From Algoriphagus hitonicola (GTDB lineage: Bacteria; Bacteroidota; Bacteroidia; Cytophagales; Cyclobacteriaceae), in assembly GCF_900113375.1 (NCBI RefSeq), contig NZ_FOPC01000011.1:6530-70529 (forward strand): DNA of 64,000 bases, given 5' to 3'. Positions within the stretch are counted from its first letter, which is position 1; each line of letters opens with the position of its first letter. Both the position numbers and the translations under genes were made by a program. Shown piece after piece: positions 8,028 through 53,930 of the stretch. A model generated the notes under the pieces. That model made no database searches and had not been told where the DNA came from. It saw only the letters and a program-made list of their open reading frames with translations.

Positions 8028-9227
8028 TTAACCGATAAAATAGTTGTATCCCAGTCCTAAAACTATACCTCCGGCTATGATCAATGGAGAGGTGATTTTG
8101 GTAAATTGAAGTAAAGAGTAGGTGCCCAGTACCATTAAAATATTAATCAAATTGGCCTCCATCGGCTCGAAAAGCAAATAAGCCGCTGCAATGAGCATCC
8201 CGCAGGATACCGCATTGATCCCTTCAAGTGCGGCTCTGACGGGGCGGTATTTTTTCAATTGCTCCCAAAATCTAATCACGAAGAAAATCATAAATATCCC
8301 CGGTAAAAAAATCCCCGCAGCAGCTATCAATCCCCCCGATAAAAAACCCAAAAACCCGAATTCTCTCATAGACAAGGCACCCACATAGGAAGAGATGCTG
8401 AAAGTAGGCCCGGGAATTCCCTGAGAAATCGCATAGCCAGTCAGAAATTCTTCCGAACTCAAAAATTGCTTAAAGTCCACAAACTCAGTGTAAAGATACG
8501 GGACCAATACCTGACCACCTCCGAAAATCAAACTCCCGTTTCGATAGAAGTTTTCGAATAAAATCACCGGCTGATATTGAGTAATTGCTCCCAATGTCGC
8601 AGCAAAAACCAATACTCCGGCCCACAAATAGAAATTGCTCCATTGGATTACTAGAGGTTGATCCTGTTCGATTTTGGGTTGTTTTTTATATTTGATAGAG
8701 GTGCTGAGCCCTCCTATGATCAACAGCACCGGGAAGACATAGGGAGAAGAATAGAAAAATGAAATAAAGGTCGAAATCAAGACCAATACCATTGCTTCGG
8801 TGGTTTGGACCATTTTGCCAATGGTTTTCTGAGCTGCAAAAATGATAAATCCAATGGCCATAGGCTGGATGAACTTAGCAAAATTGAGTGCTCCCGGAGT
8901 GTATTCTTGTAAAAAATGGATCAATGCTGCGGCAGCTGTCATCAATAAGGTCGCTGGAATAATCCATACCAAAAGTGCCAGATAGGCAAGGTTTGGGCCA
9001 CCGACCCGAAACCCTATCGCTGAAACTAGTTGGGTGGAAGAGGGGCCGGGCAGCATATTGCAGAGGGCATTCAGCTCCCAGAGTTCTTCTTCGGAAATGT
9101 AATTTCGCCTTTGAACCATCCGCTCCAAAAGCATGGCTAAAAATGCTTGAGGACCGCCAAATGCAGTAACAGAAAGGGCCAGAATGTCCCTTAAAAACAG
9201 GTAATATCTGACCCTTTTTACCGACAT
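8028..9227 (-). CDS. chrA: Chromate transporter, long-chain (CHR) family
   Basis: 399 residues, an integral membrane protein made of two homologous CHR halves. The first half has FGGPQAF and LPGPSSTQL; the second has FGGGQVLVPYL and GIPGPTFSI. This fits the two-domain ChrA type with about ten membrane helices. Characterised members export chromate, but many environmental copies have untested substrates (sulfate-like oxyanions). It is 4 bases upstream-adjacent to the 2OG oxygenase stop, so the two may be one transcript. I give the symbol because of clear family membership, not proven function. Confidence 0.85.
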   Translation of the reverse strand: MSVKRVRYYLFLRDILALSVTAFGGPQAFLAMLLERMVQRRNYISEEELWELNALCNMLPGPSSTQLVSAIGFRVGGPNLAYLALLVWIIPATLLMTAAAALIHFLQEYTPGALNFAKFIQPMAIGFIIFAAQKTIGKMVQTTEAMVLVLISTFISFFYSSPYVFPVLLIIGGLSTSIKYKKQPKIEQDQPLVIQWSNFYLWAGVLVFAATLGAITQYQPVILFENFYRNGSLIFGGGQVLVPYLYTEFVDFKQFLSSEEFLTGYAISQGIPGPTFSISSYVGALSMREFGFLGFLSGGLIAAAGIFLPGIFMIFFVIRFWEQLKKYRPVRAALEGINAVSCGMLIAAAYLLFEPMEANLINILMVLGTYSLLQFTKITSPLIIAGGIVLGLGYNYFIG

Positions 9228-49313: not shown

Positions 49314-50186
49314 ATGGCTAACCTTAAGGAAGTAAAGCAGCGTATCACCTCGGTAGTTTCGACACAGCAGATTACCAAGGCTATGAAAATGGTCTCTGCG
49401 GCAAAACTCAGAAGAGCACAGGACAAAATCGTGCAGATGCGTCCCTATTCTCAGAAGTTGACCAATATCCTCAACAATGTTTCCGCGGCTGCCGAGGGAT
49501 CGGAGGATCTAGTCTATGCCCAAAAGCGTGAGGTAAACAAGGTGCTGATCGTACCCGTGACTTCGGATAAGGGACTTTGCGGTGCCTTCAATTCCAATAT
49601 TATCAAGGCCTCTAACGCAGCGATCAACGGGCAATTTGCAGGAAAGCAGATTTCCATTCTTCCTTTGGGTAAGAAAGCTTACGAATACTTCAAGAAATCC
49701 GATTACACGCTGATTGATCAGTTTTATCAGGTATTTTCAGAGGTTGCTTTTGACAATGTCAAGTCAGCGGCTGAGTTTGCCATGAACGGATTTGTAGCGG
49801 GAGATTATGATCAAGTGGTCTTGGTCTTCAATGAATTTAAGAACGTTGCTACGCAAATTATCCGTACCGAGAAGTTTTTGCCTATGGCCCAAGAGGAAAC
49901 CAATGAGGTAAAGACGGCCGAGGTGGATTATATTTTGGAGCCATCGAGATCTTATATCATCGAGGAATTGGTTCCCACTTCCTTGAAGATTCAGTTTTAC
50001 AAAGCTGTTTTGGAAAGCAATGCCTCCGAGCACGGCGCTCGAATGACCGCGATGGACAAGGCGACAGAAAACGCCGGAGATTTGCTTAAAGAACTTCGCC
50101 TGATGTACAACCGTACCCGTCAGGCAGCGATTACCAACGAGATTTTGGAAATCGTGGCCGGTGCCAATGCATTGGGAGGAAAATAA
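49314..50186 (+). CDS. atpG: ATP synthase F1 subunit gamma
   Basis: 290 residues. The N-terminal helix is typical (ANLKEVKQRITSVVSTQQITKAMKMVSAAKLRRA, shown in part as ITKAMKMVSAAKLRRA) and the C-terminal helix ends in TRQAAITNEILEIVAGANAL. Gamma is the rotating shaft. The operon ends here with a strong terminator; atpD and atpC are not downstream. Confidence 0.96.
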   Translation: MANLKEVKQRITSVVSTQQITKAMKMVSAAKLRRAQDKIVQMRPYSQKLTNILNNVSAAAEGSEDLVYAQKREVNKVLIVPVTSDKGLCGAFNSNIIKASNAAINGQFAGKQISILPLGKKAYEYFKKSDYTLIDQFYQVFSEVAFDNVKSAAEFAMNGFVAGDYDQVVLVFNEFKNVATQIIRTEKFLPMAQEETNEVKTAEVDYILEPSRSYIIEELVPTSLKIQFYKAVLESNASEHGARMTAMDKATENAGDLLKELRLMYNRTRQAAITNEILEIVAGANALGGK

Positions 50187-50208
50187 AATCCAATAGACCC
50201 ATATTTCT

Positions 50209-50241
50209 AAACCACAGCTTGCAAGGGCTGTGGTTTTTTTG
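50209..50241 (+). terminator. Terminator of the atp operon
   Basis: AACCACAGC/GCTGTGGTT is a 9-bp stem with an 8-base loop followed by seven or more T residues, 22 bases after the atpG stop. Confidence 0.9.
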
Positions 50242-50278
50242 TGGGATTTTTATAAATTGAACTAAAGTTTTTAATAAA

Positions 50279-51343
50279 ATGATGTTCAATTTACCTGAAG
50301 AAAGAAATCTACCAATCCAATTTTTATCTTCTACATTAGGAAAGACAGCTGCAACTTATAAGTTCTACTGGTTTATTTCCTTAGTTCAATTGATTGAAGA
50401 AGAAGGTGCTATCGTTGAAAAAAAGAAAATCTTTGCAAGGATGCTTGCAAATGCATGGTATACGGTTAACTATTTCAAAATTTCTTTTGGAAAACAAGAC
50501 AAAGTTCATGAAGCCGTTTCTTATTTTAAAGAGGAAATAAAGATTCCAATAGACTTGGGTCGGACTAGAGTTTGGGAAAAAATACTTTCAAGTAAAGATT
50601 CTCGATCTAATTCAATTCTTTCACATTTCGACAATCAAGTGCCTCACTGGTTTCTTTCACCGTGGTTTCCAAGGATGAGTAAGCGACAGATTTATTCGAA
50701 TTCCAAGGACCCTAAAAGAAAGAGTCCGTATTTTTTAGAATCAAATTTCATAGAAGTTAATCCAGAATGGTTATCTTATCTTTTGAAAAATTCAGCGATT
50801 TTAAAGGATTTTTGCTTTTGGAATTTGAGTTTGTTTTTACAAAAACATAACCCAAATGTTCCTGACATACCCAATAAACTTATCAAGCCAATAAGTAGGG
50901 CCTCGCTAAATAAACAAAAGAGAGATTTCTGGAATATCTATTTTGAGGAAGTTAAAGAACAGGAGTGTATATATTCTGGAGAAAATCTCACATCAAAAAA
51001 TTATGTTTTAGATCATTTTGTCCCTTACAATTTTGTTTCTCATGATCTGAATTGGAATTTGGTACCAGCTCATGCATCAATCAATGGATCAAAAAGCGAT
51101 AAGCTTCCAAGACTAAATCAGTATTTCGATTCATTTTATGAAATACAGAAAAGAGCCCTCCAAGTAGTCATAAAAAATCATCCAGCTTCGAAATTAATTG
51201 AGGACTATTTGTCAATTTTTCCTTCCATCGAGAGCTTTCAATATACTGGATTATCAAAGAATAAATTTAAAGAAACGATAGAGCCTCTGATTACCATTGC
51301 TCATAATAATGGTTTTGAATTCTATGAACCAAAGGCAAAATAA
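50279..51343 (+). CDS. HNH endonuclease-domain protein
   Basis: 354 residues. The N-terminal 200 residues are of no domain I can name (LSSTLGKTAATYKFYWFISL and a later Trp/Pro-rich stretch). The HNH core is at residues 228-275: Cys230, Asp245-His246 (VLDHFVPYN), Asn260 and Asn269 in NGSKSDK, giving an H-N-N set. The family of HNH nucleases includes restriction enzymes, homing endonucleases and defence effectors. It is AT-rich (18 of 60 bases G+C at 50701-50760, against 29 of 60 in atpG at 49981-50040). It overlaps the next gene by 20 bases, so the two are translationally linked. Confidence 0.8.
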   Translation: MMFNLPEERNLPIQFLSSTLGKTAATYKFYWFISLVQLIEEEGAIVEKKKIFARMLANAWYTVNYFKISFGKQDKVHEAVSYFKEEIKIPIDLGRTRVWEKILSSKDSRSNSILSHFDNQVPHWFLSPWFPRMSKRQIYSNSKDPKRKSPYFLESNFIEVNPEWLSYLLKNSAILKDFCFWNLSLFLQKHNPNVPDIPNKLIKPISRASLNKQKRDFWNIYFEEVKEQECIYSGENLTSKNYVLDHFVPYNFVSHDLNWNLVPAHASINGSKSDKLPRLNQYFDSFYEIQKRALQVVIKNHPASKLIEDYLSIFPSIESFQYTGLSKNKFKETIEPLITIAHNNGFEFYEPKAK

Positions 51344-52184
51344 TTTTTCACATCTCACCGCAAAAGAGCGATCATCGCTTTCTTTTCCTGCAAAGAGAGT
51401 TAAGGAAATGGGACTGCTTCAAGGTGAAATTCTGGATTTTGGTTGTGGCTTTGGAAAAGATGTTGAAATCCTATTTCAGCAAGGATTTTCAATTGAGGGA
51501 TATGATAAGTATTACCTCCCCGAATATCCCAAAAAGCGATATGATACAATCATCTGCTTTTATGTTTTGAACGTATTGATGCCAGAGGAGCAATCTCTGG
51601 TTTTGATGGAAATTTCGGCATTGCTTAAGCCCTCTGGTAAGGCTTATTTTGCTGTTCGGCGGGATTTGGTTTATGAAGGATTCCGGACGCACAAGATTCA
51701 CCAAAAACCGACTTACCAGACCAATGTGATCTTACCTTTTCAGTCTATTTTTAAAAATGATTTTTGTGAAATTTATGAATATCGACATTTCAATCAATTT
51801 GAAAATTCTGAATCTAGTTGCCCGTTTTGCTGCCCAAGTTCAGAAACAGAATTGATTCTTGAATCTGCACAGGCTTTTTCGATTTTTGATAAATATCCTG
51901 TAAATCCGGGTCATGCATTAATTATTCCGAAGCGACATGTTTCAGATTATTTTGAGTTGAGTTTTATGGAGCAATCATCTTGTATTTTTATGCTCAATGA
52001 AGTGAAAAAGGAAATCCAAAAGCGCTATGTTCCCGAAGGGTTCAATGTGGGGATTAATATTGGTGAAAAAGCTGGACAAACTATTTCACATGTTCATATT
52101 CATTTGATTCCAAGATATTTGGGTGATGTTGAAGATCCGAGAGGTGGGGTGAGGGGGGTGATTCCCCAAAAAAGGAATTATTAA
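51324..52184 (+). CDS. SAM-dependent methyltransferase fused to a HIT domain
   Basis: 286 residues from the ATG at 51324, which lies in the 3' end of the HNH gene. Residues 36-160 are a class I methyltransferase: motif I ILDFGCGFGKDVEIL and the acidic D61 in GYDKYY, then CFYVLNVLMPEEQ. Residues 166-286 are a HIT domain: CPFC, then the HVHIH triad (256-260) and the C-terminal DPRGGVRGVIP. HIT proteins hydrolyse or transfer nucleotides. The two domains together with the upstream HNH nuclease suggest nucleic-acid modification and cleavage. I found no restriction-enzyme-type target-recognition domain. Confidence 0.82.
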   Translation: MNQRQNNFSHLTAKERSSLSFPAKRVKEMGLLQGEILDFGCGFGKDVEILFQQGFSIEGYDKYYLPEYPKKRYDTIICFYVLNVLMPEEQSLVLMEISALLKPSGKAYFAVRRDLVYEGFRTHKIHQKPTYQTNVILPFQSIFKNDFCEIYEYRHFNQFENSESSCPFCCPSSETELILESAQAFSIFDKYPVNPGHALIIPKRHVSDYFELSFMEQSSCIFMLNEVKKEIQKRYVPEGFNVGINIGEKAGQTISHVHIHLIPRYLGDVEDPRGGVRGVIPQKRNY

Positions 52185-52208
52185 ACTCAATTTATAAATG
52201 TCATTTTC

Positions 52209-53345
52209 TCAATAAGTCTCCTGTACCCAACGCTCCAAAAATACATCGTTTACCTCGTAGAAGGTGTTTCCTTCAGGGTCCGTTTCCTGATAGATCATTT
52301 CCTTTTCTTGGAGGACCTGAAGGGATTTGATGACAGTCGCAGAACTCCCTAGGTTGTGTTCACTCAGAAAGGATTTTGAGGTGGGTTGATAGACTTTCCC
52401 AGCCTTTGCTATGGCAATTAATAACTTCCATTGTTGGGTACTCAATAGGTTTCTGAAATGCAGAAAGAAAGCTTCGTTCTCTTCCAAAATCTGTTGGGCA
52501 CATTTTTGCCAATCCGTCTTTTTATAGACTATTTTTGGAACTTGAACTAGCCGATTGCAGAGTAATTGCACATAATAAGTATGACCTTTAGTCCATTCAA
52601 GAATTTGGTCTGCAAGTTCGGGAGCTAAGGTTTTCTTGTGTTTTTTGAAAATATCAATAATAAAAACCCGGTATACCTTTGGATCAATTTTTTGAAGCTG
52701 AATAGGGCTTGCACTTTTAAAAAATGGGCGGGAAGGATTGGAAAACAACTCATTTAAAATAGATTGCTGACTTCCTGAAAACAGAAAATTAACATTTTGA
52801 AGCTTCTGAATGACCGATCTCAACCAGGCGTCAGTATTTTTCTCAGGATAAGCATGAATTTGCTGAAATTCATCAATCGCAATCACCATGGGCCTCTCCG
52901 AACTTTCCAGAAAATTCAAAAGATCTATAACCGGCTGCTTAGCCTCACTTACCTGAAAACTCACTTGCGGAAGCCCACTTAATTGATCAAAAGATATCAT
53001 TGGTCTGAGATTTTTGACAAAGGACCAGACTTTTTTCCCCCAACTGTCTTTTTCAGAAAATTGATGGAGTAATGCGGTACTGAGGGAATTCAGCAGTTGT
53101 TTTTCATTTTCGGTCGAAAGAATATCGATGTAAATGAAGTCCCAATTTTTTGGCATGTGCTCCGCCAAATGATGAATTAAAGCGGTTTTTCCTAGGCGTC
53201 GCTTTCCATATAATAAGCAAGATTGACCATTTGTCAGGTTTTTAAGGAGCTGATGAGTTTCTTTTTCTCGATCACAAAAATATTCCGGCCCATAATATCC
53301 TGTGGTTGGAAAGGGATTTGCAGGTGTTTTGTGACGCTTACCCAT
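52209..53345 (-). CDS. AAA+ ATPase with C-terminal winged helix (archaeal-ATPase type)
   Basis: 378 residues. The start GPEYFCDREKET is typical of the ATPase family (PF01637-like) expanded in Bacteroidota. Walker A GKRRLGKT is at residues 47-54, Walker B is MVIAIDEFQQI, and sensor-like Ser is in LFSGSQQS. The C-terminal 100 residues look like a winged-helix DNA-binding domain (WKLLIAIAKAGKVYQPTSKSF). Members are often near transposons or toxin genes; the role here is unknown. The stop lies 24 bases after the convergent HIT-fusion stop. Confidence 0.85.
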   Translation of the reverse strand: MGKRHKTPANPFPTTGYYGPEYFCDREKETHQLLKNLTNGQSCLLYGKRRLGKTALIHHLAEHMPKNWDFIYIDILSTENEKQLLNSLSTALLHQFSEKDSWGKKVWSFVKNLRPMISFDQLSGLPQVSFQVSEAKQPVIDLLNFLESSERPMVIAIDEFQQIHAYPEKNTDAWLRSVIQKLQNVNFLFSGSQQSILNELFSNPSRPFFKSASPIQLQKIDPKVYRVFIIDIFKKHKKTLAPELADQILEWTKGHTYYVQLLCNRLVQVPKIVYKKTDWQKCAQQILEENEAFFLHFRNLLSTQQWKLLIAIAKAGKVYQPTSKSFLSEHNLGSSATVIKSLQVLQEKEMIYQETDPEGNTFYEVNDVFLERWVQETY

Positions 53346-53356
53346 GGCTTTAATAT

Positions 53357-53414
53357 TAACTTACCTTTTGTTACTTACCAAAGGTAACTTACCAAAGGTA
53401 ACTTGCCAAAAGTA
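53357..53414 (-). promoter_or_regulatory. Four tandem 14-bp repeats with embedded -7 promoter elements
   Basis: Four tandem 14-bp units (consensus TAACTTACCAAAGG on the plus strand) fill 53357-53412, starting 12 bases upstream of the AAA ATPase start. On the minus strand three of the units' ends read TACCTTTG, TACCTTTG and TACTTTTG (53379-53386, 53393-53400, 53407-53414), each matching TAnnTTTG. So they form a tandem promoter-like array. They also contain inverted text (GTTAC/GTAAC) that could bind the ATPase's own winged-helix domain. Confidence 0.65.
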
Positions 53415-53487
53415 AGTTGATGAATTTTTATAAGCCATCTAAACTAGATCTATTGGGTAGGATACTATTCGAGGCTAGCAAGTGTCA

Positions 53488-53499
53488 GTCGGCAGACAG
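53488..53499. repeat. GTCGGCAGACAG palindromic text (second copy)
   Basis: Part of a short imperfect palindrome in the gap before the DoxX gene's stop; it shares 10 of 12 bases with TGTCGGAAGACAG at 1304-1316. It may be a decayed dispersed repeat. Confidence 0.3.
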
Positions 53500-53531
53500 C
53501 GACTAGGGGAAATGGTAAAGTAAAAGGGGGA

Positions 53532-53930
53532 TTAGATTCTTCGCTTTTTTCCAGTCAGACCATCAATCGAAAATTTTCCACCACCAAAAACCAATAAGCC
53601 CAAAAAGGTCAGAAAATAGAGTAAAGGCAGCTCTTTTCTTCCAAAAGGATCATCTATATGCGCATAGAAAGCCGCAGTCAGCATAGTGATCATTAGCGGG
53701 ATGGTTGCCAATCGAACCTTAAACCCAACCATAATCAATACCGAGCAAATCACCTCTGCAAAAATCGCCAAGCCCAAGGATACTGTAGGCCCTAAGCCAA
53801 AAGGATCTGCAAACTTAACTTCGTCTGCCATGATTCGCTCAATTTTGGGAATGCCGTGGGTGAGCATCATTCCGCCGGCACCCAAGCGGATAATTAAGAG
53901 AACTAGATTTTTTTCAAAGGATCTTCTCAT
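53532..53930 (-). CDS. DoxX family membrane protein
   Basis: 132 residues with four transmembrane helices. The N-terminal segment LLIIRLGAGGMMLTHGIPKI and FGLGPTVSLGLAIFAEV match the DoxX pattern of an Arg/His-Gly-rich first helix and a conserved Glu in the second. DoxX proteins are membrane proteins linked to redox or thiosulfate metabolism in some bacteria; many have no known role. It is a single gene with a candidate -7 element upstream. Confidence 0.9.
   Translation of the reverse strand: MRRSFEKNLVLLIIRLGAGGMMLTHGIPKIERIMADEVKFADPFGLGPTVSLGLAIFAEVICSVLIMVGFKVRLATIPLMITMLTAAFYAHIDDPFGRKELPLLYFLTFLGLLVFGGGKFSIDGLTGKKRRI

Follow-up and report, generated by a model that had tools for sequence, protein, structure and literature searches.

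Within a 64,000-nucleotide stretch of the Algoriphagus hitonicola genome (contig NZ_FOPC01000011.1, positions 6,530 to 70,529; hereafter the window), a gene for an HNH nuclease overlaps a gene for a class I methyltransferase fused to a HIT domain. We give a probability of about one half to the reading that this pair is an undescribed mobile defence module, in which the HNH effector varies and a generic partner serves any nuclease. We infer the defence role from strict pairing, a non-core distribution and defence-rich neighbours, which, as far as sequence can tell, support the mobile defence module proposed for this locus in an earlier annotation made from the letters alone (the sequence-only reading). 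If correct, this reading would add a two-gene defence module across Bacteroidota and Ignavibacteriota, point to a broader pairing of HIT hydrolases with HNH nucleases, of which no report was found in the open-access PMC literature, and raise the biochemical question of which nucleotide the HIT domain acts on in immunity.

A profile search of GTDB genomes with the fusion gave 450 related places, the best 80 of which were kept; these belong, judging by their titles, to Bacteroidota and Ignavibacteriota. An HNH gene stands directly upstream of the fusion, on the same strand, in all 80 loci, and the two open reading frames (ORFs) overlap, as called, in 77. Genes in relatives were called with a simple longest-ORF script, which gave the L079 fusion the wrong strand; tblastn shows this fusion to be intact. 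The upstream nuclease is a full-length protein of the window's type (type A) in 47 loci and a full-length protein of another type (type B) in 28, and the remaining five comprise an apparently frameshifted type A gene (L122), three genes cut at contig ends (L134, L148 and L163) and one gene with an HNH_2 domain (L154). A phylum sample of 395 Bacteroidota genomes yielded the fusion in 17, each with an adjoining HNH gene, such that no fusion examined in the two sets lacks this neighbour (some of the 80 GTDB loci are also among the G-numbered genomes, L120 and G035 for example having the same coordinates). The pairing is therefore strict, beyond what chance would give, but sporadic. The co-occurrence that the sequence-only reading expected of a mobile module is borne out in both sets, and the pair is not a core gene set, given its presence in 17 of 395 genomes and the variability of its own site in relatives.

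The nuclease gene has been exchanged between strains next to a nearly unchanged partner. Between a type A strain, Algoriphagus formosus (L118), and a type B strain, A. marincola HL-49 (L120), identity is 95.4% as far as position 8952, just short of the HNH start at 8959; the HNH gene itself is spanned by no match, and the two sequences align again, at 94.9%, from 10015, where the partner gene begins. The next downstream gene also differs in this pair of strains, being a 523-amino-acid (aa) gene that clusters with the sulfatase of L117 in L118 and an AAA gene in L120. An independent HNH exchange separates A. limi (L119, type B) from A. kandeliae (L125, type A), with flanks of 94.2% and 90.8% identity and the HNH gene as the sole break of that size. 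Similarity between the swapped HNH proteins is mostly confined to the HNH region, with about 28–30% identity, next to partners that are 94–95% identical; when the profiles of the two types are compared, the alignment covers 88 columns and is limited to the surroundings of the HNH domain. Since the nuclease is exchanged and the two types are alike only at the HNH domain, the partner must serve different nucleases. A tree of 81 fusions was built by a quick maximum-likelihood method without bootstrap, support being taken as a Shimodaira–Hasegawa-like approximate likelihood ratio test (SH-aLRT) value of at least 95; on it, the distribution of type A versus the rest requires at least 17 changes, of which supported branches force 10. 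HNH type is nevertheless more clustered on this tree than in shuffles, and exchange therefore appears frequent but not free. Such natural strain pairs, alike except for their nuclease genes, would allow a direct test of specificity if the defence reading is right.

One locus departs from the common architecture: at L092:9810-12326 the HNH partner has a methyltransferase domain of its own (555 aa, Methyltransf_25 and HNH_4), next to a fusion whose HIT part is missing its end. A phage or viral home of the module was considered and rejected, with no fusion confirmed among the eight stretches matched in viral contigs and only partial matches in phage records (30 records, the HIT part being what matched in all 20 listed). 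HNH relatives number two in viral contigs (64 stretches matched) and one, distant, in phage records. Near the end of one viral contig from IMG/VR (L256:9-629) lies part of a type A HNH gene, covering query residues 142–348 at 52% identity.

The two proteins and their site downstream of atpG

The HNH assignment made from the letters alone is confirmed by Pfam, in which the window protein passes the HNH_4 gathering score (33.5 bits against 22). In an alignment of the window HNH with 47 of the 80 HNH proteins from the GTDB loci (A2), H246, N260, N269 and K272 are invariant in 48 of 48 sequences, and position 245, aspartate in the window, is aspartate in 24 and glutamate in 24. The fold and the DH...N...N pattern are those of the Cas9 HNH domain; unlike Cas9, the window protein has no RuvC or guide-RNA part, and the structural match spans residues ~193–347, no more. 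The sequence-only reading saw no target-recognition domain and left the N-terminal part unnamed, a statement that has to be amended: residues ~1–190 are predicted, in a confident model, to form a mostly helical domain, and structure comparison of the model gives a weak resemblance to winged-helix DNA binders that may serve as a lead only.

The second protein is, as had been proposed, a class I methyltransferase joined to a HIT domain, with Pfam matches to Methyltransf_23 (5.5e-10, 39.6 bits against a cut-off of 27) and HIT (2.6e-19, 70.1 bits against 21.5) and with its catalytic residues kept. In an alignment of the window fusion with 53 of the 80 GTDB fusions (A4), the S-adenosylmethionine (SAM) motif residues D38, G40, G42, G44 and D61 and the HIT triad H256, H258 and H260 are each invariant in 54 of 54 sequences; in a more diverse alignment (A1) the SAM motif is kept in 20 of 20 and the triad is complete in 18 of 20. 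Structure comparison of the model places the HIT part in the fold of Fhit, HINT and Ap4A phosphorylase, with which it shares the histidine triad. It differs from these proteins in being joined to a methyltransferase and linked to HNH nucleases.

Features of the locus in window coordinates; pLDDT, predicted local distance difference test
Feature	Position	Strand	Remarks
atpG	49314-50186		upstream of the HNH/methyltransferase-HIT pair
Hairpin CCACAGC...GCTGTGG with T run	~50212-50240		3' of atpG, read in the sequence
HNH nuclease gene, type A, 354 aa	50279-51343	+	Pfam HNH_4, 4e-8; model pLDDT 91.4
HNH_4 domain, residues 230-277	50966-51109	+	like the Cas9 HNH domain
Overlap of HNH and fusion genes, 20 bases	51324-51343	+	
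Methyltransferase-HIT fusion gene, 286 aa from ATG	51324-52184	+	Pfam scan from 51297; model pLDDT 87.3
Class I methyltransferase part, residues ~1-140	51324-51743	+	SAM-binding motif LDFGCGFGKD
HIT domain	51774-52181	+	triad HVHIHLI and C-terminal PRGGVR stretch
Convergent AAA/ATPase_2 gene, 378 aa	52209-53345	-	domain scan

The layout read from the letters, an AT-rich pair between the atp terminator and a convergent AAA ATPase, was right in coordinates and content. An alternative in-frame start of the fusion, TTG at 51297, lies upstream of the ATG; the conserved N-terminus of the protein starts near 51324 (A1), and the overlap claimed earlier holds with the ATG as start. The guanine-cytosine content, described as below that of the neighbours, is 32% in the HNH gene and 37% in the fusion gene against 43% for the whole window, the HNH gene being the lowest among the 48 called ORFs of more than 150 aa. 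Beyond the convergent gene stand DoxX and then a gene for an FAD oxidoreductase.

The module is accessory. An HNH match was found in eight of 58 genomes, the window's own included, three of the eight being weak and partial. Loci were made from 30 of the 58 atpG matches (genus, own included), with at most 1.5 kb downstream of each: atpG is followed by a type A HNH gene in five, by a type B gene in two, by DoxX instead in five and by the AAA gene without the module in one, and the remaining 17 show none of HNH, DoxX or AAA. Several of those 17 carry a gene of about 520–540 aa, whose counterpart in L117 is a sulfatase (Pfam). No module is present in the relative whose atpG is closest to the window's (95%); only a decayed HNH start with stop codons is left there, and the similarity of this relative to the window ends near 50430 and returns near 53532. 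Window positions 50187-53531 are accordingly a variable site in the genus, occupied by a module of type A or B, by the AAA gene or by the gene of ~520–540 aa, or else with DoxX directly after atpG. Because relatives carry the AAA gene both with and without the module, it is probably a variable neighbour at the same site and not a module member.

Neighbouring genes and known defence systems

At part of the loci, genes next to the module are rich in matches to defence systems, the kind of setting that the sequence-only reading had named as support. For the near set, the closest gene longer than ~100 aa was taken on either side of the module, and 127 of these 146 genes were scanned against PADLOC; the rows left out are one near-copy in L183 and 18 that belong to the repeated Algoriphagus site, including atpG. 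The far set took genes more than 5.5 kb away (110 of 120 scanned, leaving out mostly the repeated upstream gene of the Algoriphagus site); neighbour proteins above 600 aa were cut to 600, and genes of ~100 aa or less were not taken. At 1e-10, 255 PADLOC models were matched in the near set and 43 in the far set, counts that refer to models and not proteins, family models overlapping. A Wadjet operon adjoins the module in seven of the 80 loci according to BLAST clusters, downstream in L124, L136, L166, L187 and L193 and upstream in L130 and L132, with a truncated one in L180. All four Jet proteins were confirmed by PADLOC for L136 only, and a Pfam scan of the near genes gave five DUF3375 and two JetD matches. 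On the fusion tree, supported branches force at least four separate changes in Wadjet adjacency. Further near genes include PbeA (L137), PDC-S02 (L182), a SoFic-like protein (L195) and a helicase fusion (L172). Against this picture stands the phylum sample, where DUF3375 is absent from all 17 fusion genomes; on this result Wadjet was rejected as the module's general partner, strong as the association is locally.

A protein of about 1600 aa lies within a few genes of the module in L144, L151, L154, L169 and L172, with a 440 aa piece in L185; the L172 copy joins a DEAD/DpdF-like to a UvrD-like helicase.

Two known systems come close to parts of the module. In Thoeris II, too, a HIT protein is attached to a defence system, and its ThsC is the best PADLOC match of the window HIT (9.1e-11); the PADLOC authors hypothesise that ThsC forms or degrades the signal and perhaps serves as an off-switch (PMC8565338). 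By contrast, the window module has neither TIR (ThsB) nor ThsA beside it, its neighbours being atpG, AAA and DoxX, and its HIT domain is fused to a methyltransferase with an HNH nuclease as partner. Septu resembles it in having an HNH protein, PtuB, in a two-gene unit, and the window HNH is a weak match (2e-4) to the PADLOC model PDC-M01B. The partner of PtuB is the ATPase PtuA (PMC11811056) and not a methyltransferase-HIT protein. A Septu identity, suggested by the PDC-M01B match, was dropped because no PtuA was seen: the convergent AAA gene, which lies on the opposite strand, has six PADLOC matches at E ≤1, with no Septu model among them. The sequence-only reading knew of no named defence system with this composition, and our search agrees, since no paper describing an HNH and methyltransferase-HIT pair was found in the open-access PMC literature by title or abstract start. 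The two-gene module is apparently undescribed, and the case for it is stronger than the sequence-only reading made it.

Mechanism and competing explanations

As a defence module, the pair might work as follows. The HNH protein, predicted from its sequence to be a metal-dependent DNA endonuclease or nickase, would be the effector, and its N-terminal domain would set what is cut or what activates it; whole exchange of the HNH gene between strains is the pattern that diversifying selection on a recognition or effector part would be expected to leave. The methyltransferase-HIT protein, found in association with several HNH proteins, would be their generic enzymatic partner and would most likely handle a nucleotide, be it a signal, a nucleotidyl adduct or modified nucleotides freed by the nuclease. 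With the HIT domain hydrolysing the nucleotide and the methyltransferase altering it, the nuclease could be armed only on invading DNA or switched off afterwards. The fusion is probably neither the dedicated antitoxin of one nuclease nor half of a classical DNA-methylating restriction-modification pair, as nuclease exchange argues against both a specific antitoxin and a protective DNA methyltransferase.

A toxin–antitoxin or addiction pair, with the HNH protein as a toxin that the fusion neutralises enzymatically or by binding, would fit the overlap of the genes and the presence of an HNH gene with every fusion at the loci examined. We regard it as unlikely. A type A HNH gene is present in genome G078, where the fusion search gave no match, which argues against an obligate pair; on the six plasmids opened, neither a HIT nor a methyltransferase-HIT gene adjoins the HNH relatives; and a partner that stays 94–95% identical while its nuclease is replaced by one alike only in the HNH region ill fits a specific binding antitoxin, although the antitoxin may in a variant of this explanation be generic and enzymatic. 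The same replacement bears on classical type II restriction-modification, in which the methyltransferase would protect host DNA: a nuclease swapped without its methyltransferase would leave host sites unprotected. Nuclease and methyltransferase do stand in one unit here, yet the best Pfam methyltransferase match is Methyltransf_23, and the DNA methyltransferase motif [SDN]PP[FYW], as given in PMC10853773, is present neither in the window fusion nor in any of the 54 aligned fusions (A4). This explanation is highly improbable, and the earlier judgement that the pair is not a classical restriction-modification system stands. Very unlikely, in our view, is a nucleic-acid processing or repair pair, in which the HNH protein would nick damaged or aberrant DNA and the HIT domain would clean the ends. 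HIT domains act on nucleotidyl adducts (aprataxin removes adenosine monophosphate) and HNH enzymes can nick DNA, family knowledge that speaks for such a pair together with the recurrence of the ~1600 aa helicase fusion near the module; a sporadic distribution, HNH exchange and defence neighbours are not expected of repair genes.

The module could also be part of DNA phosphorothioation defence (Ssp or type 4 BREX), with the HNH protein cutting by sulfur status and the HIT domain handling nucleoside phosphorothioates or sulfur nucleotides, a joint proposal that we consider quite unlikely. Several observations lean towards it. The best NCBIfam methyltransferase model for the fusion is TIGR04096, the phosphorothioation-associated methyltransferase, which resembles the N-terminal methyltransferase stretch (residues 19–94 as scanned; 1.6e-14); the match is partial, stays below the cut-off (53.6 bits against 150) and stops short of the HIT part. 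Plasmid HNH endonucleases are near-full-length homologues of the window HNH (27–32% identity in 14 of 16 plasmid records), and type A relatives lie within 5 kb of a cysteine desulfurase in three of the six plasmids opened, two of these with DUF4007; L095 shows the same set. DUF4007, which corresponds to SspB and to a component of type 4 BREX (PMC12839542), is found complete or as a remnant just upstream of the HNH gene in six of the 80 loci. Human HINT1 desulfurates deoxyguanosine monophosphorothioate (dGMPS; PMC8775712). Conversely, searches of the window's own genome matched neither DUF4007 (at 1e-8) nor DndC (at 1e-3), DUF4007 occurs in three of 17 fusion genomes versus 22 of 378 others (Fisher p 0.084), and of the six upstream DUF4007 pieces only that of L170 is complete, the other five being truncated. 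Phosphorothioation as a requirement was rejected on the first two of these results. We read the module as one that has inserted into phosphorothioation-type loci, or has arisen from them, without needing such systems. The truncated DUF4007 starts (L141, L147, L161, L162 and L168), which belong to different taxa, mostly end soon after GKNMVSSI, as if the module had replaced the remainder of that gene.

HIT domains beside other HNH nucleases

The association of HIT domains with HNH nucleases extends beyond the fusion. The phylum sample contains 15 HIT matches without the fusion, and at eight of the 13 such loci examined (L100, L102, L105, L106, L107, L108, L109 and L112) an HNH nuclease stands directly beside the HIT domain or is fused to it. 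Pfam identifies the HNH domain in L102, L105 and L107, and BLAST or a motif does so in the others. No HNH was recognised at the other five (L103, L104, L110, L111 and L113). The nucleases at these HIT-only loci belong to several HNH classes. Among plasmids, 12 HIT neighbourhoods were opened out of 94 records, and four of them (L072 to L075) have an adjacent HNH gene; the other eight show none by annotation, some of the neighbours being unscanned hypothetical proteins, and a HIT domain alone is therefore no marker. We infer that the HIT domain, rather than the methyltransferase, is the more general partner of HNH nucleases. A bolder proposal, advanced tentatively and in our judgement somewhat more apt to fail than to hold, is that one conserved methyltransferase-HIT enzyme licenses or resets interchangeable HNH nucleases, that the effector is swapped by precise gene replacement, and that a HIT hydrolase, whether adjacent, fused to a methyltransferase or fused to the HNH protein itself, is a common control element of HNH-based immunity.

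At L105:8971-9963 and L112:1-967, HNH and HIT are combined in one polypeptide of about 320–330 aa with no methyltransferase match; Pfam places HNH at residues 147–191 and HIT at 218–311 in L105, and the assignment of L112 comes from motif and BLAST only. On a Mycolicibacterium plasmid (L250:2453-3960), a TIR gene overlaps a 340 aa HIT-domain gene, and the two, possibly a Thoeris-like pair, stand between helicase-related and GIY-YIG genes.
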